Under the pieces are notes generated by a model. That model was not told the origin of the DNA and made no database searches. It was given only the letters and a program-made list of their open reading frames with translations. The position numbers were made by a program, and so were the translations under genes. DNA of 33,710 nucleotides from Microcoleaceae cyanobacterium MO_207.B10 (GTDB lineage: Bacteria; Cyanobacteriota; Cyanobacteriia; Cyanobacteriales; Microcoleaceae), in assembly GCA_030064835.1 (NCBI GenBank), contig JASJEE010000013.1, forward strand, positions 1 through 33,710, given 5' to 3'. Positions 24,595 through 33,710 of this stretch are shown here, one piece after another (within the stretch, counting starts at the first letter, position 1; the number at the start of each line of letters is the position of its first letter).

Positions 24595-25257
24595 TCAAAT
24601 ATGACATATTTTTATTTTGCCAGTTTTACCTTGACTGGGTGTTAGCGTTTGTGTAGGATTCCGTAAGGAAAGCTCCTCCGAAGGAGGCACTACAATACCC
24701 TCTATCCTATGGTCAAAGACATTTGGGATTGCTTTTCTCATAATATTCAAAGAACCATTAACATCAGTATTAATCAATCTACCAAAACCTGTGCGATACA
24801 AACCCCTTTTCACCCTTTTTCCACTAAAAGTTGACTGATTTTTCTCACCGTTTAAGTACACAGGAATTGCATCATTATCCATAAAACTTGCAATTGAAGT
24901 ATAAGATTCTTCGGTTAAAATTACCTTAATTCCTACCATTTTGGCTTTATAAGATAACATTTCTATTAACTTAGTATGGGGAATTTGAACAAAATTTTGA
25001 TTGTTCTTTTTTCCTAAATTAATCTCCTGTTTCCACTCCTGATTTGGGCCAATTATCAGAATTCCTATTTTCTGAGTGATGAGGCTATTAATAATCAAAC
25101 GAGATGTTTTATGCAGATAATCATTGATTTTAAATTCTCTTTTATTCGCTAGTTTTCTTAGTCTCTGACTTGATTGATTTTCTCTTAGCAGACCTTGAAG
25201 ACTGCTTCTAACCTTCTTATAGTATTGATTGATAGATTTTAACGGTCTGCTTCCCTT
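24595..25257 (-). pseudogene. tnpB: 5'-truncated tnpB (IS200/IS605-family RuvC-like nuclease gene)
   Basis: The frame is open from an in-frame TAG at 25258-25260 to the stop at 24595, 220 sense codons with no ATG at the start. It begins in the middle of TnpB (RPLKSINQYYKK, then INDYLHKTSR). It keeps RuvC-like parts, KVILTEESYTSIASF and GRLINTDVNGSLNIMRKAIPN, of the zinc-finger-less type. The N-terminal half, including the first catalytic Asp region, is missing. A TTG at 25096-25098 could be read as a start but lies inside conserved sequence. The C-terminal codons contain a hairpin CCTCC-TTC-GGAGG at about 24676-24688. No tnpA and no left end are visible. It is surely inactive as a nuclease. 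Confidence 0.85.
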
Positions 25258-25505
25258 CTATCTATACTTCTTTTTATATAGAATCCGGTTCAACGAGTGT
25301 ATGTTCATAATTTGATAATTACTTCAAGGCTTCAATATCCTCACCCCCCCCATCTCTCCCAACTATATAATAAGTATTCAAGCGGATTTGATATTATGTT
25401 TCCTTTACAAAAAGTCTCTAAAACAAATTACCTCAAGTTTTTGAGAATTGCTACATCAAAAACTGTGAGGTATAGCTATCAACTAATTTTCAACTAACAT
25501 TTATT
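25258..25505. other. Gap between tnpB relic and feoB
   Basis: About 250 bases with a C-rich patch (CCTCACCCCCCCCATCTC near 25338) and no convincing gene. The 66-codon frame on the plus strand has no ribosome site and no recognisable motif. Confidence 0.4.
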
Positions 25506-27332
25506 TTAGAAACCTAAAGCTAAAGCTCCTTGATAGAAAATGAAACTACCAACCCAAGCTAAAACTAATGGAAATACTAAAGAAAGTAGAGAAAATTTCC
25601 ATGATTTTGCTTCTTTAATTAAGGTGGCTAAAGTAGATAAACATGGGGTATAAAGCAAACAAAAAATACAGAAACTATATCCTTGAATAAAAGTAACTGT
25701 CTCGGCAATATTGGTACTAACATTTTGTTCGCTCATGCTGTAAATAACTGCTAATGAACCGACAACAACTTCCTTAGCAATGAAGCCAAAAAATAGAGAT
25801 AATGTTAAATAAGGATTGATGCCAATAGGGTCCATAATAGGACTCATTAATTGACCAATTTGACCACCAATTGTATCTAATCCTGTTGCCCCTGGAGGTA
25901 AACTTGTAAGTACCCAAATTGCAATACAACCAGCAGTAATAAAGCCAGATGCTCTAAATAAAAATTCTCTGACTTCTCCCCAACTTCTCAGAAAAACTTG
26001 TTTTAATGTAGGTAAACGATAAGGAGGTAGTTCTAAAACGAAAGGTTCTTCATTCTTATATATTCCTTGAAATAATGCTGCGGTGAGAATAGCAACCAGA
26101 AAACTGAGGATATATAGAGAGAATAAAACAAAGGCTCCATTGCCATTAGGAAATACTGCGGCAATGATAAATACAAATACTTGAAGTCGTGCCGAACATA
26201 AACCAAAAGGAATAATTAACATGGTTAATAGTCGTAAAGCACGGGAACGCATTACCCTGGTTCCCATTAATGCTGGAACATTACAACCAAACCCCATTAT
26301 ATGCAGTACAAAACTACGTCCGTCTAAACCCATTTTTGCCATTAAAGCATCCATTAAATAGGCGGAACGTGATAGATATCCACTATCTTCTAGCACTGCC
26401 ATAATTATAAAAAATACGATAATTAAAGGCACAAAAGAAGCGACTGTAGTTACCCCCGCCCAAACCCCATTCATTAGAAAGTCTTCAACTAGCGGTGGAA
26501 AAATTTGAACTATAGGTTCAACAATTGATGATTGTAACCATTCAACCACAATTTCTAACAGGTCTATTGAAGGAAGTGCAATATTCCAAACTGCCCAAAA
26601 AACTAGGAACATTCCGAGGAAAAATAAAGGCAAACCCCAGACAGGATGAAGCAGAATTTTATCAACTTGAGCTGTGAAATTTTTTGCTATTTCAGAGGGA
26701 ATAACCACAGCTCCATTTAGGACAGTATCTATTTCCTGAACCGAAATATTTTCGTCTGCTTTTAAGATATCTAGTTTTGTTGAATTTTGACTCTCTTTTA
26801 ACTGTTCGGAAATTGCCATATATGCGTTCATATAACCTTTGCCATATTTAGCACTGATTAGAAATACTGGCATTTCCAAACGTTGAGATAATTCTTCGGT
26901 GTTTATTTTAATTCCATATTTTTTGGCTTCATCTGACATATTCAGCATTAAAACTGCGGGTAAACCAAAGGCTTTTAGCTGCAATGGAAGGAGAATTTGA
27001 CGGTCAATTTGTGAGGCATTAATAACGACTATTACTAAATCAACAGGATTATTTTCTAGAAATCTTTGAACGACTTTTTCATCTTCGGAAAAACCGTTGA
27101 GATTATAAACTCCTGGCAAGTCTACAAATTGTGTTGTTTCGTTATTTATTTTGACCTCAGCTTGTAAGATATCGACTGTTATTCCCGGCCAATTTCCTAC
27201 ATGAGCAGAAACTCCTGTAATTCGATTAAAAAATGTGGATTTTCCAGTATTTGGCATCCCTATTAATGCAACTCTTTTTGTTGGATTAGTGGATGATTTA
27301 GAGATTGTTGCTGTATTGTTATGACAAGTCAT
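25506..27332 (-). CDS. feoB: Ferrous iron transporter FeoB, short cyanobacterial form
   Basis: This 608-residue inner-membrane Fe(II) importer has an N-terminal G domain with GMPNTGKST (G1, 25-33), GITVD (G2), DLPG (G3, 71-74), NMSD (G4, 131-134) and SAK (G5, 160-162). The membrane domain from about 232 has the gate segment MGFGCNVPALMG (346-357, Cys350) and further Cys near 379. It is shorter than the roughly 770-residue E. coli protein mainly because the C-terminal cytoplasmic FeoC-like part is absent; this length is usual in cyanobacteria. The ATG is preceded by AT-rich heptamers (TTATTAG) with no clear Shine-Dalgarno. A FeoA-domain fusion gene lies 1.08 kb upstream on the same strand. Confidence 0.96.
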   Translation of the reverse strand: MTCHNNTATISKSSTNPTKRVALIGMPNTGKSTFFNRITGVSAHVGNWPGITVDILQAEVKINNETTQFVDLPGVYNLNGFSEDEKVVQRFLENNPVDLVIVVINASQIDRQILLPLQLKAFGLPAVLMLNMSDEAKKYGIKINTEELSQRLEMPVFLISAKYGKGYMNAYMAISEQLKESQNSTKLDILKADENISVQEIDTVLNGAVVIPSEIAKNFTAQVDKILLHPVWGLPLFFLGMFLVFWAVWNIALPSIDLLEIVVEWLQSSIVEPIVQIFPPLVEDFLMNGVWAGVTTVASFVPLIIVFFIIMAVLEDSGYLSRSAYLMDALMAKMGLDGRSFVLHIMGFGCNVPALMGTRVMRSRALRLLTMLIIPFGLCSARLQVFVFIIAAVFPNGNGAFVLFSLYILSFLVAILTAALFQGIYKNEEPFVLELPPYRLPTLKQVFLRSWGEVREFLFRASGFITAGCIAIWVLTSLPPGATGLDTIGGQIGQLMSPIMDPIGINPYLTLSLFFGFIAKEVVVGSLAVIYSMSEQNVSTNIAETVTFIQGYSFCIFCLLYTPCLSTLATLIKEAKSWKFSLLSLVFPLVLAWVGSFIFYQGALALGF

Positions 27333-27360
27333 TTTAGTTATTAGTTATTAGTTATTAGTA

Positions 27361-27990
27361 TTTCCTACTATCCTAGAGGTTTGTTTTCCTAATCCATTTT
27401 TAGTTAGGTTTGGAGACCAAACCCCTACAGTTTTGTTTGACAAATCATTGACCGAATAATTAATAATTATTAATTCAATAATTCCGGTTGAAAGCTTCCT
27501 CTTTCCAGGGAGAAAATGCTATTATATTTCCTTGTTTTCAATTCCATTACGGTTTTAACCAGAGGTAATTATCCATTATCAGTTAACAGTATTTTCTACT
27601 ATCGTAGGAGTTTGGTCTCCCAACCCATTTTTAGTTAGGTTTGGAGACCAAACCCCTACAGTTTTGTTTGACAAATCATTAACTGAATAATGAATACTTA
27701 TTAATTCAATAATTCAGTAGGTAATTATCAATTTCCATTATCAATTATCCATTATCAATATTTCCTACTATCGTAGGGTTTTGGTCTCCTAATCCATTTT
27801 AACTTGGGTTTGGAGACCAAAACCCTACAGTTTTGTTTCACAAATCATTGACTGAATAATGAATAATTATTAATTCAATAATTCCGGTTTAAAGCATCCT
27901 CTTTCCAGGGAAAAAAATTGCTAGGATATTTCCTTAGATTCAATTCCGTTACGGTTTTTCTTGAGGTAATTATCAATTATCAATTATCCA
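27361..27990. repeat. Three tandem hairpin-bearing repeat units
   Basis: Units start at about 27361, 27593 and 27761, each with TTTCTACTATC, an inverted pair around TTGGTCTCC/GGAGACCAA, CTACAGTTTTGTTT and AAATCATT. In unit 3 the stem is 17 bp and perfect: GTAGGGTTTTGGTCTCC (27773-27789) with its complement at 27812-27828, loop 22 bases. Unit 2 keeps the stem with one mismatch; unit 1 is eroded on its left arm. Units 1 and 3 also carry minus-strand copies of the 120-bp dispersed family (27457-27575 and 27857-27972), which unit 2 lacks. Confidence 0.8.
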
Positions 27991-28066
27991 TTATTATCAG
28001 CTATAACCTTGAAAAAATAAGGACTAGAAAAGTAAGGATTCAGCTATTAGCTAGCCTTTTTTCCTT

Positions 28067-28116
28067 CGGAATACTCCGCAAACAGAGGAGCTTTCCTATC
28101 GGAATACTGCGCAAAC
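28067..28116. repeat. Two close copies of CGGAATACTSCGCAAAC
   Basis: The 17-base word occurs at 28067-28083 (S=C) and 28100-28116 (S=G), and again at 31638-31654 and, with two changes, at 18409-18425. The sequence around it can fold into short hairpins and lies just left of the second MITE-like element. Confidence 0.7.
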
Positions 28117-28177
28117 GCTAACAGCGTCAGCTTTTTAATCAAAAAAGAAAACATTTGGTTAATTTCTACTATGCTAC

Positions 28178-28302
28178 TATAGCAATCCTCCGCATATTCG
28201 TGGCAAAAATCTTACTGCTTTTTAGGAAACACTTAACTGCTGGGAGTTTAAACTTTTTTATTGACTTTTTAATTACCCCCAACATAAGGGCGGATTGCTA
28301 TA
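28178..28302. mobile_element. MITE-like element with TATAGCAATCC ends, copy 2
   Basis: TATAGCAATCC (28178-28188) and GGATTGCTATA (28292-28302) are perfect 11-bp inverted ends. The interior of about 100 bases matches the outer parts of the copy at 22072-22302, including GGGAGTTT, a T-rich run, GACTTTTTAATTACC and GGGCGGATT at the right. No ORF is present. Confidence 0.72.
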
Positions 28303-28416
28303 TATTTTTAATCAGAGAATTGAAGCACAATAGCGACTAGCTCTAGTTATCAACTAAAAGTAATGAAGCTATTAGCTGATAGCTGACCGCTGACTACTGA
28401 ATGCTTACCTATAAAA

Positions 28417-29334
28417 TTACTTTGGTTCTATCTCCAGATTACCATCTTCATAAAGTAAGATAGCAAACTCAGTCCATTCTGTTTGATTAGTAAAATTATT
28501 AGGCTTAACTAAATTTGGCAGTGGTGTACTACTCAGATGATTTTTTGCTATTTCATTAAACGCTTCATAAGAAATAATAGTTCCGTTTTTATCTACTTTA
28601 ACTATATAAATTGCTGTCTGTTTGACTGGTTTTTTCCAGTTGTTATCAATATTAGTATAGAGTTTTTCTTGTAACCTGCTAATTTCTTGTTTGTCAGTAA
28701 TTTTTTTACCAATTGACTCTACACTTTCGCTACTAGAATTAGTTGTTATTGTTAGTTGATTGCTGGTATTTTCAGTAGGAGCTTTAGTTGTCGTTTCCGG
28801 GGAAGTAGATTCGTTATTTGCTGGAGCTATTGTTGGCGCAACTTTGTCTACAACTACAGTCTCTAATGTTGGATTTTCTGTTAATTCTGTGGTTGAGTTA
28901 GCCACAATATTAGCAGCATTTTGAGGTTGATTAGCTTGCTCAATATTACTATTATTTAGGAGTTGATAAAGTTGACCAATAACCAAGAATATAATAGAAA
29001 TTAATATGAGGAATGAGATAGTTTTAACTTGTGAGATTAACTCTATTATAGAGTTGGGGACTATTTGAGAACCTTGGTAATAATTTATCTCATCATCCTC
29101 ATCTGTCTTAATAACTATCATTTCTGCTTCATGGGATCGGATAGCTATTTCTGTAGTTGCTCCCACTCGAATGTGTAACGGCCCATTAAACCCAGCCTTT
29201 CGTAAAACTTGCACTGGTTTATCAGAAATTACTCCCATTGCTGCTAGTCTCTGAACTATTCCTTGTTCGCGACCAATACTTAGGACTTGATCGACTATTG
29301 CCATTTGTCCTGTTCTCAAATCAGCTACATTCAT
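28417..29334 (-). CDS. FeoA-domain protein fused to a membrane segment and periplasmic TonB-C-like domain
   Basis: The product is 305 residues. Residues 1-76 are a FeoA (SH3-like) domain: MNVADLRTGQMAIV, then VQRLAAMGVISDKPVQVL and IRVGATTEIAIRSHEAEMI. A linker is followed by one membrane span (about 106-124, ISFLILISIIFLVIG). Residues 125-215 are low-complexity, rich in Asn, Thr, Ser and Glu. A C-terminal domain (about 220-303; LQEKLYTNIDNNWKK, IVKVDKNGTIISYE, AILLYEDGNLEIEP) resembles the TonB-C-like end of some cyanobacterial proteins. FeoA alone is about 75-85 residues and binds the FeoB G domain in the cytosol; here it would be tethered to the inner membrane with a periplasmic arm. GGAGGT about 9 bases before the ATG fixes the start. 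feoB lies downstream on the same strand. Periplasmic function is inference. Confidence 0.85.
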   Translation of the reverse strand: MNVADLRTGQMAIVDQVLSIGREQGIVQRLAAMGVISDKPVQVLRKAGFNGPLHIRVGATTEIAIRSHEAEMIVIKTDEDDEINYYQGSQIVPNSIIELISQVKTISFLILISIIFLVIGQLYQLLNNSNIEQANQPQNAANIVANSTTELTENPTLETVVVDKVAPTIAPANNESTSPETTTKAPTENTSNQLTITTNSSSESVESIGKKITDKQEISRLQEKLYTNIDNNWKKPVKQTAIYIVKVDKNGTIISYEAFNEIAKNHLSSTPLPNLVKPNNFTNQTEWTEFAILLYEDGNLEIEPK

Positions 29335-30248
29335 TTCTATTACCTCCGATTTTATGATTATTTTATTTATTAAAATTATTAGTATATTATCTTAGCTACT
29401 GTCCCATATTGTAGTTATGAAATATATAATAATTCGCATTTCGATACATCAGCGATCGCCTAGTTTTGCTTGTGTGAGTGGGAAGTTAGTTTGTCTTATT
29501 CATAGTTAACTAAGTTCATGGTCGTTCTCCTTTTCCTAAATCTAGCTATTGTCTCCTAAAAATATAAATTCCCGTACTTTCTCTTTATTTATCTGTATTT
29601 TAATTTTGGCATAACCTATTTTGATAAGTATGCTCTATTATTTTTTTTTAACTATTGAGATTCTTTTTTATTAGATTGAATTTTAATTACGGTGTACTCC
29701 AAGTTAGCTCACGGGGTAACAAGCACCTCGAAACTATTGTTGGATAAGGGTTTAACTATCGTTCAGGAGGGTGAAAAATTGCCGGATTTTTTGAGAATGA
29801 TAGTTATTATGTGGTGAATTTACTTGAATAATGAGTCAATCTAAGCCAGCTCAGAAAACTTAATTGAGCTTTAATTAAAAATTTTTTGAGCATCAATTAA
29901 AAATTTCAGCCCTCGAATAGATTGTCACATTTACCAAATAATTAAAAGTTAGGATAGCTAAGGCTTTTAGAGCTTTTTATCTTCAATTTATCTCCTAGTT
30001 ATTGGCTCTTATTGGCCTCAAAATACGAAAATTTTCTGCTGAAATTCCAGAAAATTTCTTCACATAAAATGGCCGAAACCGTCGCCTGTTCCCCACACTT
30101 CTCTGTCTCCGCATCTCCGCGTCACCCTGTCCTACTCCTACCAACCAATTTTTTCAGCAGACCCTAATTAATTATGTTTATGTACCTAGCTACTCATTTA
30201 AGAATAAAAAAATAAATTATATATTTTATCCGTAACTTATCAGTTTAA
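29335..30248. other. 914-bp gap without gene
   Basis: It holds the AT-rich promoter region of the FeoA-fusion gene, a HIP1 octamer near 29451, and a near-direct repeat of TTAATTAAAAATTT around 29870-29905. TCTGCTGAAA at 30035-30044 and TTTCAGCAGA at 30152-30161 form a 10-bp inverted pair around a short C-rich segment and may be another small element. No ORF or RNA gene is supported. Confidence 0.5.
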
Positions 30249-31616
30249 TTATTTCCCGACAAATAGAAACTTCAATATAAATACAATTGCTAATACCCAC
30301 ATCGCAATAGTGGTTTCATGGAATTTCCCTTGAAAAGTTTTGAGAATAGGATAAGTAATTAAACCCATGGCTAATCCATCGGCTATAGAATAACTTAAAG
30401 GCATAATTATAATTGTTAAAAATGCGGAAATAGATTCGGCTGGATCGTCCCAATTAATATTACGAATACTTCCCATCATTAATACTCCTACAATTAATAA
30501 AGTAGGTGTAGTTGCAAAGGAAGGAATTGCTGATAATAAGGGAATAAAAAATATAGATAAAATGAATAAAAATCCGACAACAACAGCAGTAAATCCACTA
30601 CGTCCTCCCTCAGAAACACCGGCAGCAGATTCAATGTAACTTGTAACTGTAGAAGTACCCATTATTGCGCCAAATGTTGTGCCGAGTGCATCTGCCATAA
30701 ATGCTTTATTTAAGTTTAATTCCTCTCTTCTTTGATTAAAATATCTGGCTTTTATTCCTAATCCTGTTAAAGTACCTACTGTGTCAAATAAATCAACAAA
30801 TATCAAAACAAAAATAATAGTAATTAATTCCCAAATATTAGTTTTGACTATATTTTCTAAACCAACAAATGCTTGACCAAATAAATGTGTTGGTAACTGC
30901 GGTAAACTAATAATTCCTTGAGGTAAAGGTGCAATTCCTAAAATCCACGCTAGTAATGCTGTTGCTAATATTCCCCATAGTAATGCTCCAGTAATCCGCC
31001 GAGCAACAAAAGCTGAGGTAATTATTATTCCAGCGATCGCTACTAAAGTTTCTGGTTGATTTAGATTACCTAAAGTGGTAGTTGTAGCTGCATCAGTGAC
31101 AATTATTTTGCTACTTGTTAGACCTATATAAGCAATAAATAAACCTATTCCTGATGTGGTCGCTTGTTTAATACATTCGGGAATATTATTAACTATTTTA
31201 GTGCGAATTTTGCTAGTAGTTAAACCAATAAAAATTAAGCCTTCTATAAAAACAGCAGCTAAGGCAACTTGCCAAGAAATTCCTAACTTTAAAACTACTG
31301 AAAAAGTAAAGTAAGCATTTAATCCCATACCTGGTGCTAGAGCATAAGGATAATTCGCATATATTCCCATAATTAGGGTTGCAAATGCTGCCGATATTGC
31401 TGTAGCAATTACCAATTCTCCAAATAGATCGCCAGAGCTTTCTAAAAAAATTGCTTTGGATAATATGTCAGGATTTACTACTAAGATATATGCCATTGTG
31501 ACAAAGGTAGTTATTCCTGCGATTATCTCTGTGTAGAAATTGGTTTGGAGTTGATTAAATTGAAAAAAATTAGTAATAATTCCTAATTTATGTGACTGGT
31601 GATTCTCTGAAGTCAT
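30249..31616 (-). CDS. NCS2-type purine (guanine/hypoxanthine, AzgA-like) permease
   Basis: The product is 455 residues from the ATG at 31614-31616. A longer reading from a TTG at 31650-31652 is unlikely because those codons lie in the dispersed CGGAATACTGCGCAAAC repeat. The protein has 12-14 hydrophobic segments. It begins in the AzgA style (FYTEIIAGITTFVTMAYILVV), has APGMGLNAYFTFSVV for the substrate half-helix and a later VDLFDTVGTLTGLG, and ends with WVLAIVFILKFLF. This subfamily imports guanine, hypoxanthine or adenine by proton symport at the inner membrane, serving salvage or use of purines as nitrogen. A perfect NtcA-type box lies 640 bases upstream. Exact base specificity is not readable. 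Confidence 0.93.
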   Translation of the reverse strand: MTSENHQSHKLGIITNFFQFNQLQTNFYTEIIAGITTFVTMAYILVVNPDILSKAIFLESSGDLFGELVIATAISAAFATLIMGIYANYPYALAPGMGLNAYFTFSVVLKLGISWQVALAAVFIEGLIFIGLTTSKIRTKIVNNIPECIKQATTSGIGLFIAYIGLTSSKIIVTDAATTTTLGNLNQPETLVAIAGIIITSAFVARRITGALLWGILATALLAWILGIAPLPQGIISLPQLPTHLFGQAFVGLENIVKTNIWELITIIFVLIFVDLFDTVGTLTGLGIKARYFNQRREELNLNKAFMADALGTTFGAIMGTSTVTSYIESAAGVSEGGRSGFTAVVVGFLFILSIFFIPLLSAIPSFATTPTLLIVGVLMMGSIRNINWDDPAESISAFLTIIIMPLSYSIADGLAMGLITYPILKTFQGKFHETTIAMWVLAIVFILKFLFVGK

Positions 31617-32603
31617 TTCAGTTAGTCTCTTTTCCTGCGGAATACTGCGCAAACAGAGGAACTTCGTTAACAGTTATAGTGTTTCTCCAGAAGGGTGAGG
31701 TACAGTTTTTTTCTGATTTTATTCTCCACTCCCCATCTTCCCTACTCGCTACTCCCAAAACAAAGGAATTTTGTACCTCACCAGTACGGGAATTGCTATA
31801 TAAGTTATCAATTATCAATTATCAATTATTAGTTAACAGTACCTCCGAATGAAGCTAAAGGCTTGAAATACTGAATTTGATTTTTTTTCATTCCCGGAAA
31901 AGGGGAAGTTTAAGACCTTAGTTTGTGGTCATATTGCTACCTAATAATTGATAATTTGGATGATTATTATATATTGTTTTGTCTATTTTGTCAAATAAAA
32001 AAATCTTAGTTTCTGTGATAGTAAAGACTGTTTTTATCAACCGAGAATACTTTGATATCTCAGTCTTTCAAGATTTTGAAAATATTATTATACCTCCACT
32101 TTAGTAATATTTAGCAATTTTTGATTTGTCTTTGCATAAATACATAAACCTTTGTATTATTATCATTTTTTTCACATTGAATTTTTTCAGAGAAAATTGC
32201 TCTTGTCAAAACCATGCTGTATAATTGTTTATATATTCATAATTTATTTAGAATTCTTGTAGTAATTACTACAAAATACTAATAATTGATCGGGCTTGGA
32301 AAAACTAATATTTTTTTACTACCTCCTTATACCATAAAAGTTCTTTTTTCCGAACAGTAAATCAAAAAAATACTTAGTTACAAGTTACTTGAATAGGACT
32401 TACACAAAACAAGATTTTTCTGTCATTACAAACAACAGTCAAGGCATCTCAAACTTATAGTTGGTATTACAGATTTGTCAATCTTGTTTAATGCTCATAT
32501 CTAAAAATATCAAATGACTAAATAAGTTTTAGTTAGTCTAGAAAATCAGACAAATATCTAAGTTTAGTTTCTAACTGGTACAAAATTACAAGGTAAATTT
32601 AAC
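31617..32603. other. 987-bp divergent gap, permease / DMT exporter
   Basis: Contents: a copy of the 17-base repeat (31638-31654), a degraded copy of the 120-bp dispersed family (about 31800-31925), a perfect 18-bp palindrome (32257-32274) matching the NtcA consensus, and a single AGGACTTACACAAAA (32395-32409) that resembles one end of the 18155-18530 element with no partner. No gene is seen. Promoters of both flanking genes should be here. Confidence 0.6.
32257..32274. promoter_or_regulatory. Candidate NtcA binding site
   Basis: TTGTAGTAATTACTACAA is a perfect 18-bp palindrome that contains TGTA-N8-TACA, the full consensus for NtcA, the global nitrogen regulator of cyanobacteria. On the plus strand the nearest TANNNT box (TAATAT, 32306) is 32 bases after the site, longer than the usual 22-23. 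On the minus strand a TATATAAA run begins about 22 bases away, towards the purine permease. The site could serve either gene. Confidence 0.45.
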
Positions 32604-33554
32604 ATGACAAGTCAAATACAATTACTCCCTCAAAATTCAGCACAAAAATCTACATTTTTCTCTTTAATAGCATTATTAGTAGGATTATTAGCTGTATCCT
32701 TAGCAGCAATTTTCATTCGATTAAGTGAAAGAGAATTAGGACCTGCTAGTACAATATTAGACCGCTTTGTTATCTCTGGTTTAGTCTTGTGGTTTTGGAG
32801 TAATTTCCAAGCTCAAAAAAATCAATCATCCGCTAATAAAAACAATTCAACTTATACATTTCGTGAGTGTATTTGGTTATTAGCTGGCGGTTTTACTTTT
32901 GCTCCTAGTTTAGTTCTTTGGGCATGGTCTTTAACCCAAACTAATGTAGCGAATTCAACTATACTTCATAATATGATTCCCATCTTTACTGCTCTGGGAG
33001 GATGGATGTTTTTAAGTCTTCGTTTTGACCGTAGATTTTTAATAGGAATGGCAATAGCTATAGTCGGAGCAATTGCAATTGGAGCAGATGATATACAAGT
33101 AGATTTACAGCATTTTGCTGGCGACTTAGCAGCATTTTCATCTGCAATTTTATTTGGTGCTTACTACTTATTAATTGAACAACTTCGCTCGAAATTTTCT
33201 GCAACAACTATCTTATTATGGACTTGTATAGGTGGTAGTTTATTTACTCTTCCTATTGCTTTATTGACGGAAGATCATATTTTACCTTTTTCTTGGGAGG
33301 GATGGTTATCAATTATTGGTTTAGCAGTAATTGCTCAAGTTTTAGGTCATGGATTTGTTACTTATAGTCTGAAAACTTTTTCCTCTGGTTTTGTTGCTTT
33401 ATGTTTTTTATTGGAACCTGTAATTACTGCTTTAATTGCTTGGGGATTATTCTCAGAACAACTTACTATAATTAGTTGGTTAGGATTTTTTATTGTGTTA
33501 TTAGGATTATATTTAGCTCAATCAAGTCCTTCAATTCAGAAAGCTAGTCATTAA
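32604..33554 (+). CDS. DMT-superfamily (EamA) transporter
   Basis: This 316-residue inner-membrane protein has about ten hydrophobic segments in two EamA repeats (about 18-160 and 165-307). The first repeat begins LIALLVGLLAVSLAAIFIRLSE and includes GPASTILDRFVISG. Each half ends near motifs usual for the family (TNVANSTILHNMIPIFTALGG; GFVALCFLLEPVITALIAW). Members export amino acids, nucleosides or drugs; the substrate cannot be told. AAGG lies about 10 bases before the ATG. It is divergent from the purine permease across a long gap. Confidence 0.92.
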   Translation: MTSQIQLLPQNSAQKSTFFSLIALLVGLLAVSLAAIFIRLSERELGPASTILDRFVISGLVLWFWSNFQAQKNQSSANKNNSTYTFRECIWLLAGGFTFAPSLVLWAWSLTQTNVANSTILHNMIPIFTALGGWMFLSLRFDRRFLIGMAIAIVGAIAIGADDIQVDLQHFAGDLAAFSSAILFGAYYLLIEQLRSKFSATTILLWTCIGGSLFTLPIALLTEDHILPFSWEGWLSIIGLAVIAQVLGHGFVTYSLKTFSSGFVALCFLLEPVITALIAWGLFSEQLTIISWLGFFIVLLGLYLAQSSPSIQKASH

Positions 33555-33710
33555 AGTAGCACTCAGCAGTCAGCTATTAGCTATCAGCTTTTCAAGGTTT
33601 ATTAAAACTCCTATTAACAAGCACCACTATATTTGAAAAATTAGTGGAATGAGGAACTTAAACCCTTGGATTTTTAGCTGTTAACGTAGTTCCTCCGCAG
33701 GAGGCTAGCT
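33555..33710. repeat. Gap at the window edge with dispersed short repeats
   Basis: CAGTCAGCTATTAGCTATCAGC (about 33566-33587) is an inverted relative of AGCTATTAGCTGATAGCTGAC near 28367-28387. CCTCCGCAGGAGG at about 33692-33704 is a short perfect hairpin (CCTCC/GGAGG). No gene is seen before the edge. Confidence 0.5.

Follow-up and report, generated by a model that had tools for sequence, protein, structure and literature searches.

We identify in Microcoleaceae cyanobacterium MO_207.B10 a gene, fusion A, whose product FusA combines a FeoA domain with a single transmembrane (TM) helix, a disordered linker and a C-terminal domain (CTD) which, from profile comparisons and structure models, we conclude to be a divergent TonB_2-like domain. 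It lies upstream of feoB in the window, by which we mean the whole 33,710-nucleotide stretch of DNA that was analyzed. As judged from sequence comparisons, this FeoA fusion is one use of a recurrent periplasmic module associated with importers. Taken as a whole, the data are best explained, with slightly better than even confidence on our part, by FusA being a membrane-anchored FeoA whose tail would passively dock the importer in the cell envelope.

Ordinary FeoA is a free cytosolic partner of FeoB of about 80 residues, from which FusA departs in its length of 305 residues, its TM helix and its CTD (Table 1). The FeoA region scores 58.3 bits against a cut-off of 23 bits with the Pfam FeoA profile (E = 8e-16), and a whole-genome search recovered it in the same place. 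In a full-length model built on a 13-sequence alignment this region is of low confidence (pLDDT 30-47), and the assignment and fold of the FeoA domain accordingly rest on the Pfam match. A hydropathy scan placed the top hydrophobic segment of the protein at residues 108-126, and the full-length model contains one helix, at 94-128, after which the chain is disordered to about residue 205, with a pLDDT of 21-28 across most of the linker. Thus, the architecture described in the earlier note from the letters alone, namely a FeoA domain, a tether, a disordered linker and a folded TonB-like domain with feoB downstream on the same strand, is upheld, with a linker of about 80 residues in place of the 90 first estimated. 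A simple scan of the coding strand found no terminator-like site in the spacer between FusA and feoB, Rfam searches over positions 25000-33710 gave no matches, and an alignment of upstream regions contained no motif callable as a Fur box. Beyond feoB, an open reading frame at 24595-25098 on the minus strand was judged by eye to resemble the C-terminal part of an IS200/IS605-type OrfB transposase.

Table 1. Features of the fusion gene and its surroundings in the window
Feature	Position	Strand	Basis
feoB, 608 aa; 1.08 kb downstream of FusA, same strand	25506..27332	-	Pfam, TIGR00437
Spacer between FusA and feoB, 1.08 kb	27333..28416	-	
FusA (fusion A), FeoA-TM-linker-TonB_2-like fusion gene, 305 aa	28417..29334	-	ATG start, ORF
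Predicted TonB_2-like C-terminal domain (CTD), about aa 211-305	28420..28704	-	AF2, hhalign, sub-cut-off Pfam match
Disordered S/T/N/P-rich linker, about aa 127-210	28705..28956	-	pLDDT, dN/dS
Single TM helix, about aa 106-126, no His/SHLS motif	28957..29019	-	Hydropathy scan and full-length model
FeoA domain, aa 1-76	29107..29334	-	Pfam PF04023, E 8e-16; whole-genome search
Shine-Dalgarno GGAGG, 5' of the FusA ATG	29343..29347	-	Read directly from sequence
Possible remnant of a separate feoA, 49 aa, 45% identity	29452..29586	-	tblastn, E 4.7e-4

Modelled alone with AlphaFold (AF2), the CTD folds with high confidence (pLDDT 92.4, pTM 0.84) into a helix, two strands, short helices and two further strands. 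The window CTD matches Pfam TonB_2 (PF13103) below the gathering cut-off (20.3 versus 22 bits; E = 6e-4); 25 of the 41 members collected for this domain are matched by that family (best E = 9.5e-5), and every other Pfam family matches at most three. Comparison using hhalign of the CTD profile with a TonB_2 profile, comprised of 22 domains of the cyanobacterial phylum from a TonB_2 search together with E. coli TolA and TonB, gave a probability of 77.5 and a score of 33.4 over 84 aligned columns, while 150 column-shuffled controls reached at most 23.6, the reversed profile 17.1 and a FeoA profile 11.2. The resemblance to the TonB C-terminus suspected earlier is thereby borne out. Single-sequence hhalign comparisons with the CTDs of E. 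coli TolA and TonB detected nothing (probabilities 1.2 and 0.6), querying PDB sequences with the CTD profile returned chance matches only, and a Foldseek search of the PDB gave no match at E <= 0.001. The weak Foldseek matches include the CTDs of TolA (2x9a_B, probability 0.57, TM-scores 0.46/0.49; also 1lr0 and 3qdp), HasB (2m2k) and pectobacterial FusB, all of them short of that threshold. Four columns are invariant among the 41 aligned members, namely W24, A54, P62 and G89. As typical metal ligands are missing from this set, we suggest that the domain binds a protein and not iron or nitrate.

The feoB gene of the window encodes the only full FeoB in its genome, as a separate ORF and not as a single chain of FeoA and the FeoB G domain. 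The assembly is fragmented (465 contigs, 83% complete) and contains a second, separate FeoA gene on another contig (C375). An intact version of the possible feoA remnant of Table 1 lies on that contig, and Okeania likewise has a separate feoA before its fusion gene. Across 391 genomes of the order, full-length fusions are limited to a set of marine filamentous Microcoleaceae, namely the genus of the window genome, Okeania (g7) and Trichodesmium (g8); a sample of 390 genomes from across the class, which included the window genome and in its listed rows no other genome of these genera, yielded none at E <= 1e-28 outside the window genome. The fusion gene, intact or decayed, accompanies this type of feoB in 12 of the 13 family genomes that have it, and is upstream of feoB on the same strand wherever the two share a contig. 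In Okeania, as read at two loci (L048 and L043, the latter with fusion A decayed), the cluster has the order AAA - separate feoA - fusion A - feoB - fusion B - cobA - mobA. The window genome has the same genes split between the window (fusion A and feoB) and contig C375 (separate feoA, fusion B, cobA and mobA). Given that fusions A and B align from end to end at 42% identity and that the CTDs of FusA and FusB form one clade (support 98/90), the most parsimonious history is one fusion and a later duplication. A pair that may resemble the pre-fusion state is found in the genome G003 (L166:6001-8157), where a canonical feoA with an 88-residue open frame directly precedes a feoB of 73% identity. 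Search matches had raised the idea that feoB was recently acquired from Betaproteobacteria, which cyanobacterial relatives at 73% and 57% identity made unnecessary. In Okeania sp. SIO2F4 (L043:8188-9389) the fusion gene is disrupted, and its CTD end is repeated in tandem as several partial copies next to a stretch of N.

Intact full-length orthologs of 308 residues occur in five relatives, so FusA is not a chance frame. Between the window gene and its Okeania orthologs FeoA has a dN/dS of 0.20-0.26 and the CTD one of 0.16-0.23, compared with 0.65-0.70 in the linker; the two end domains are both under purifying selection, and the linker is relaxed and free to vary. Trichodesmium and its close relatives provide a natural comparison, as the tail has been shed there in the first copy: fusion A has its tail gone or broken in this group, with several Trichodesmium genomes and a further relative retaining FeoA and the helix in frames of 136-154 residues that have lost the CTD, and T. 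erythraeum retaining FeoA alone, without helix or CTD. Fusion B of Trichodesmium MAG_R02 (G024) has undergone the converse loss, of FeoA, and keeps the helix and CTD. The single FeoA match in each of T. erythraeum, MAG_R02 and a third genome (G031, 81% complete) is the remnant of fusion A next to feoB, and in T. erythraeum feoAB expression falls with added iron, with a putative Fur box at feoA (PMC12090762). On these two grounds the FeoA part of FusA is very probably the FeoA of FeoB, and we have good confidence that it serves that importer. Since the tail was lost there while FeoA and FeoB persist, it is dispensable in the Trichodesmium lineage, where docking cannot be essential. Besides the fusion gene, Okeania and several relatives have additional FeoA genes. 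The earlier note had named as grounds against its reading a separate canonical feoA that was always present together with a fusion gene that did not track feoB; the window genome and several relatives do encode a separate FeoA, but in T. erythraeum the sole FeoA is the fusion remnant, and the tracking with feoB holds.

What the earlier note overlooked is that the tail represents a module found widely among cyanobacteria, in many cases beside or fused to nitrate and iron importers. The helix-linker-CTD unit occurs across cyanobacteria both as a stand-alone protein and fused to others, including nitrate NtrCD-type ABC ATPases and DUF4335, and at the end of WD40 and TPR proteins. The gene contexts related to importers are: 1) Nitrate assimilation clusters, where a stand-alone module gene separates nirA from nrtP-narB in the window genome (L171) and in G027, G003 and G005, precedes nrtP-narB in G015, and is represented by two copies at the nitrate locus in G142, G244, G208 and G196. 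2) nrtABCD operons containing the ATPase/CTD fusions, as in G011 (nirA-nrtA-nrtB-nrtC-nrtD/CTD-narB); in the CTD tree these fusions are spread over two or more separate clades. 3) Iron loci, where in genus g11 a stand-alone module gene occurs with ferritin and the FTR1 iron permease, adjoining cbiMQO, and where in G003 the closest outside relative of the fusion CTDs adjoins a som-type porin carrying the NCBI name "iron uptake porin".

Several individual loci illustrate these arrangements. The window genome's nitrate copy (L171:10915-11547, contig C319) is a 210-residue protein, and its nirA/nrtP setting recurs in other genera (L182-L184, L196, L197, L199 and L202), some with two copies. At L185:6156-8066 an NtrCD-type nitrate ATPase carries a C-terminal helix, a long S/T/P-rich linker and the CTD, and further such fusions are found at L031, L131-L133, L205 and L206. 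The FTR1 - ferritin - helix-linker-CTD cluster next to cbiMQO is seen at L193:288-4148 and in its relatives (L188, L189, L192, L194 and L198), and also has two unnamed membrane proteins. Proteins with an N-terminal helix, WD40 repeats and a C-terminal CTD (L125-L127, L129, L136 and L140) are present in the window genome and several family genomes. Nineteen informative module loci, picked from CTD matches blind to their neighbors and not constituting a random sample, comprise six nitrate clusters, six loci with ferritin and/or FTR1, three with the flanking genes of the ferritin/FTR1 cluster and no FTR1 in the stretch covered, two DUF4335 loci and two others, of which the one with genes read (L200) has unrelated neighbors. 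This association suggests a common means by which nutrient importers may be tethered within the cell envelope. We tentatively extend it to the proposal that one TonB-derived, unenergized periplasmic module might be a general importer dock in cyanobacteria, tying inner-membrane uptake to the outer envelope, whether joined to cytosolic subunits of unrelated importers (FeoA in the case of FeoB, the NrtD ATPase in that of nitrate) or encoded next to them (NrtP, FTR1).

Because FeoA and NrtD must face the cytoplasm, we infer that with a single helix the CTD comes to lie on the periplasmic side, in FusA and the NrtD fusion alike. The FeoA domain of FusA would then act at the cytoplasmic face of FeoB like ordinary FeoA, with the helix keeping it in the membrane near FeoB and the flexible arm of about 80 residues reaching into the periplasm to end in the TonB_2-like binding domain. 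The arm would most likely dock, unenergized, on a periplasmic or outer-membrane partner, for which peptidoglycan or a porin are candidates, and so hold the importer in place within the envelope, with whatever effect this might have on transport. TonB and TolA bind their motors through an SHLS motif (PMC12204202), and a scan of the helices of 38 proteins found no S...H pattern in any; without this motif the module is probably a passive tether and not an energy transducer. For the CTD itself, passive docking is the reading that we favor, at about even odds. The suggestion of the earlier note that the fusion links outer-membrane state to FeoB gating fared less well, as Trichodesmium has a missing or disrupted tail and the helix is without the motif that binds the motor. 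In Bacteroides fragilis FeoA stabilizes GTP-bound FeoB (PMC8980893), and a movement of the tail could therefore in principle reach FeoB; regulation of FeoB gating from outside nevertheless appears unlikely to us.

The losses in Trichodesmium also bear on an anchor-only reading, in which the helix is the useful part of the tail, concentrating FeoA at FeoB much as in FeoA-FeoB fusions, and the periplasmic domain is a relic of the fusion event. In its favor are the genomes that kept FeoA and the helix while losing the CTD, along with T. erythraeum, which lost the helix too, and the FeoA-FeoB fusions, which make up about 8.5% of FeoA architectures (PMC8980893). Against it, the CTD is conserved as strongly as FeoA between the window genome and Okeania (0.16-0.23), as a relic would not be. 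We view this reading as a minority possibility. The FeoA domain could instead be a cytoplasmic sensor of iron or of a protein that steers the periplasmic domain, sending a signal outward with FeoB not a partner, in line with the fusion of FeoA-like domains to DtxR-type regulators (PMC8980893) and the additional FeoA genes of the window genome and Okeania; the constant linkage to feoB, and the survival of the FeoA of fusion A as the only one left in T. erythraeum, render this improbable. We rejected a true Ton system, with FusA driven by ExbB-ExbD and coupling outer-membrane iron entry to FeoB, on the absence of the SHLS motif from the helix, and consider it very improbable. It would accommodate the TonB_2-like CTD and disordered periplasmic linker, the presence of an ExbD homolog in the genome, and the link drawn in Synechocystis between ExbB-ExbD and the uptake of inorganic iron (Jiang 2015, as cited in PMC5776111). 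Against it, the N-terminal part of FusA is FeoA and not a helix, the genome's only ExbD match is on another contig (C389) with no exbB/exbD or tolQ/tolR recognized among the ORFs read around FusA, and T. erythraeum is reported to be without known TonB-dependent receptors (PMC4642986). Finally, although the assembly is fragmented and the gene is decaying in a sister lineage, the five intact orthologs already refute a chance frame, assembly join or pseudogene, and the paralog of the same architecture in the same genome, the selection on both end domains and the intact ribosome-binding site and frame leave such an artifact scarcely credible.

How inorganic iron and nitrate, once at the outer membrane, reach the inner-membrane importers of cyanobacteria is poorly understood, and for iron in Trichodesmium the outer-membrane step has been described as unknown (PMC5776111); a periplasmic module recurring on or beside nitrate and iron importers offers a concrete, testable handle on it. 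The InterPro survey of PMC8980893 lists FeoA alone, FeoA repeats and FeoA-FeoB, to which FusA adds a further architecture, and PMC8749426 mentions FeoA joined to a further domain in a passage that gives no detail of it. In the literature searched, which mostly excluded subscription journals, we found no description of a FeoA-TonB fusion, of a C-terminal extension of NrtD or of an importer-associated CTD family, and NCBIfam has no model for either fusion protein.

Compared with known systems, FusA is like FeoA (PF04023) in its full Pfam match, its place beside feoB and its role as the sole FeoA of T. erythraeum after tail loss, and unlike it in being a predicted membrane-anchored protein of 305 residues with a periplasmic domain. 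With the FeoA-FeoB fusions of B. fragilis and others (PMC8980893) it would share a FeoA physically kept at the membrane importer, though here FeoA is joined to its own helix and periplasmic domain and not to FeoB. The helix, disordered periplasmic linker and TonB_2-like CTD recall the TonB/TolA transducers (PF13103, PF03544), from which FusA is set apart by a helix without the SHLS/His motif, a large cytoplasmic N-terminal domain and no linkage to exbB/exbD. Anabaena SjdR, TonB2 and TonB4 (PMC8262864, PMC8597729) are likewise described as cyanobacterial TonB-like proteins, and are without an attached FeoA or importer subunit. A further parallel in design is the cyanobacterial NrtD-type ATPase fusion, which likewise joins a cytosolic importer subunit to a helix, a linker and the same CTD family, and differs in belonging to an ABC transporter and in serving nitrate in place of ferrous iron.
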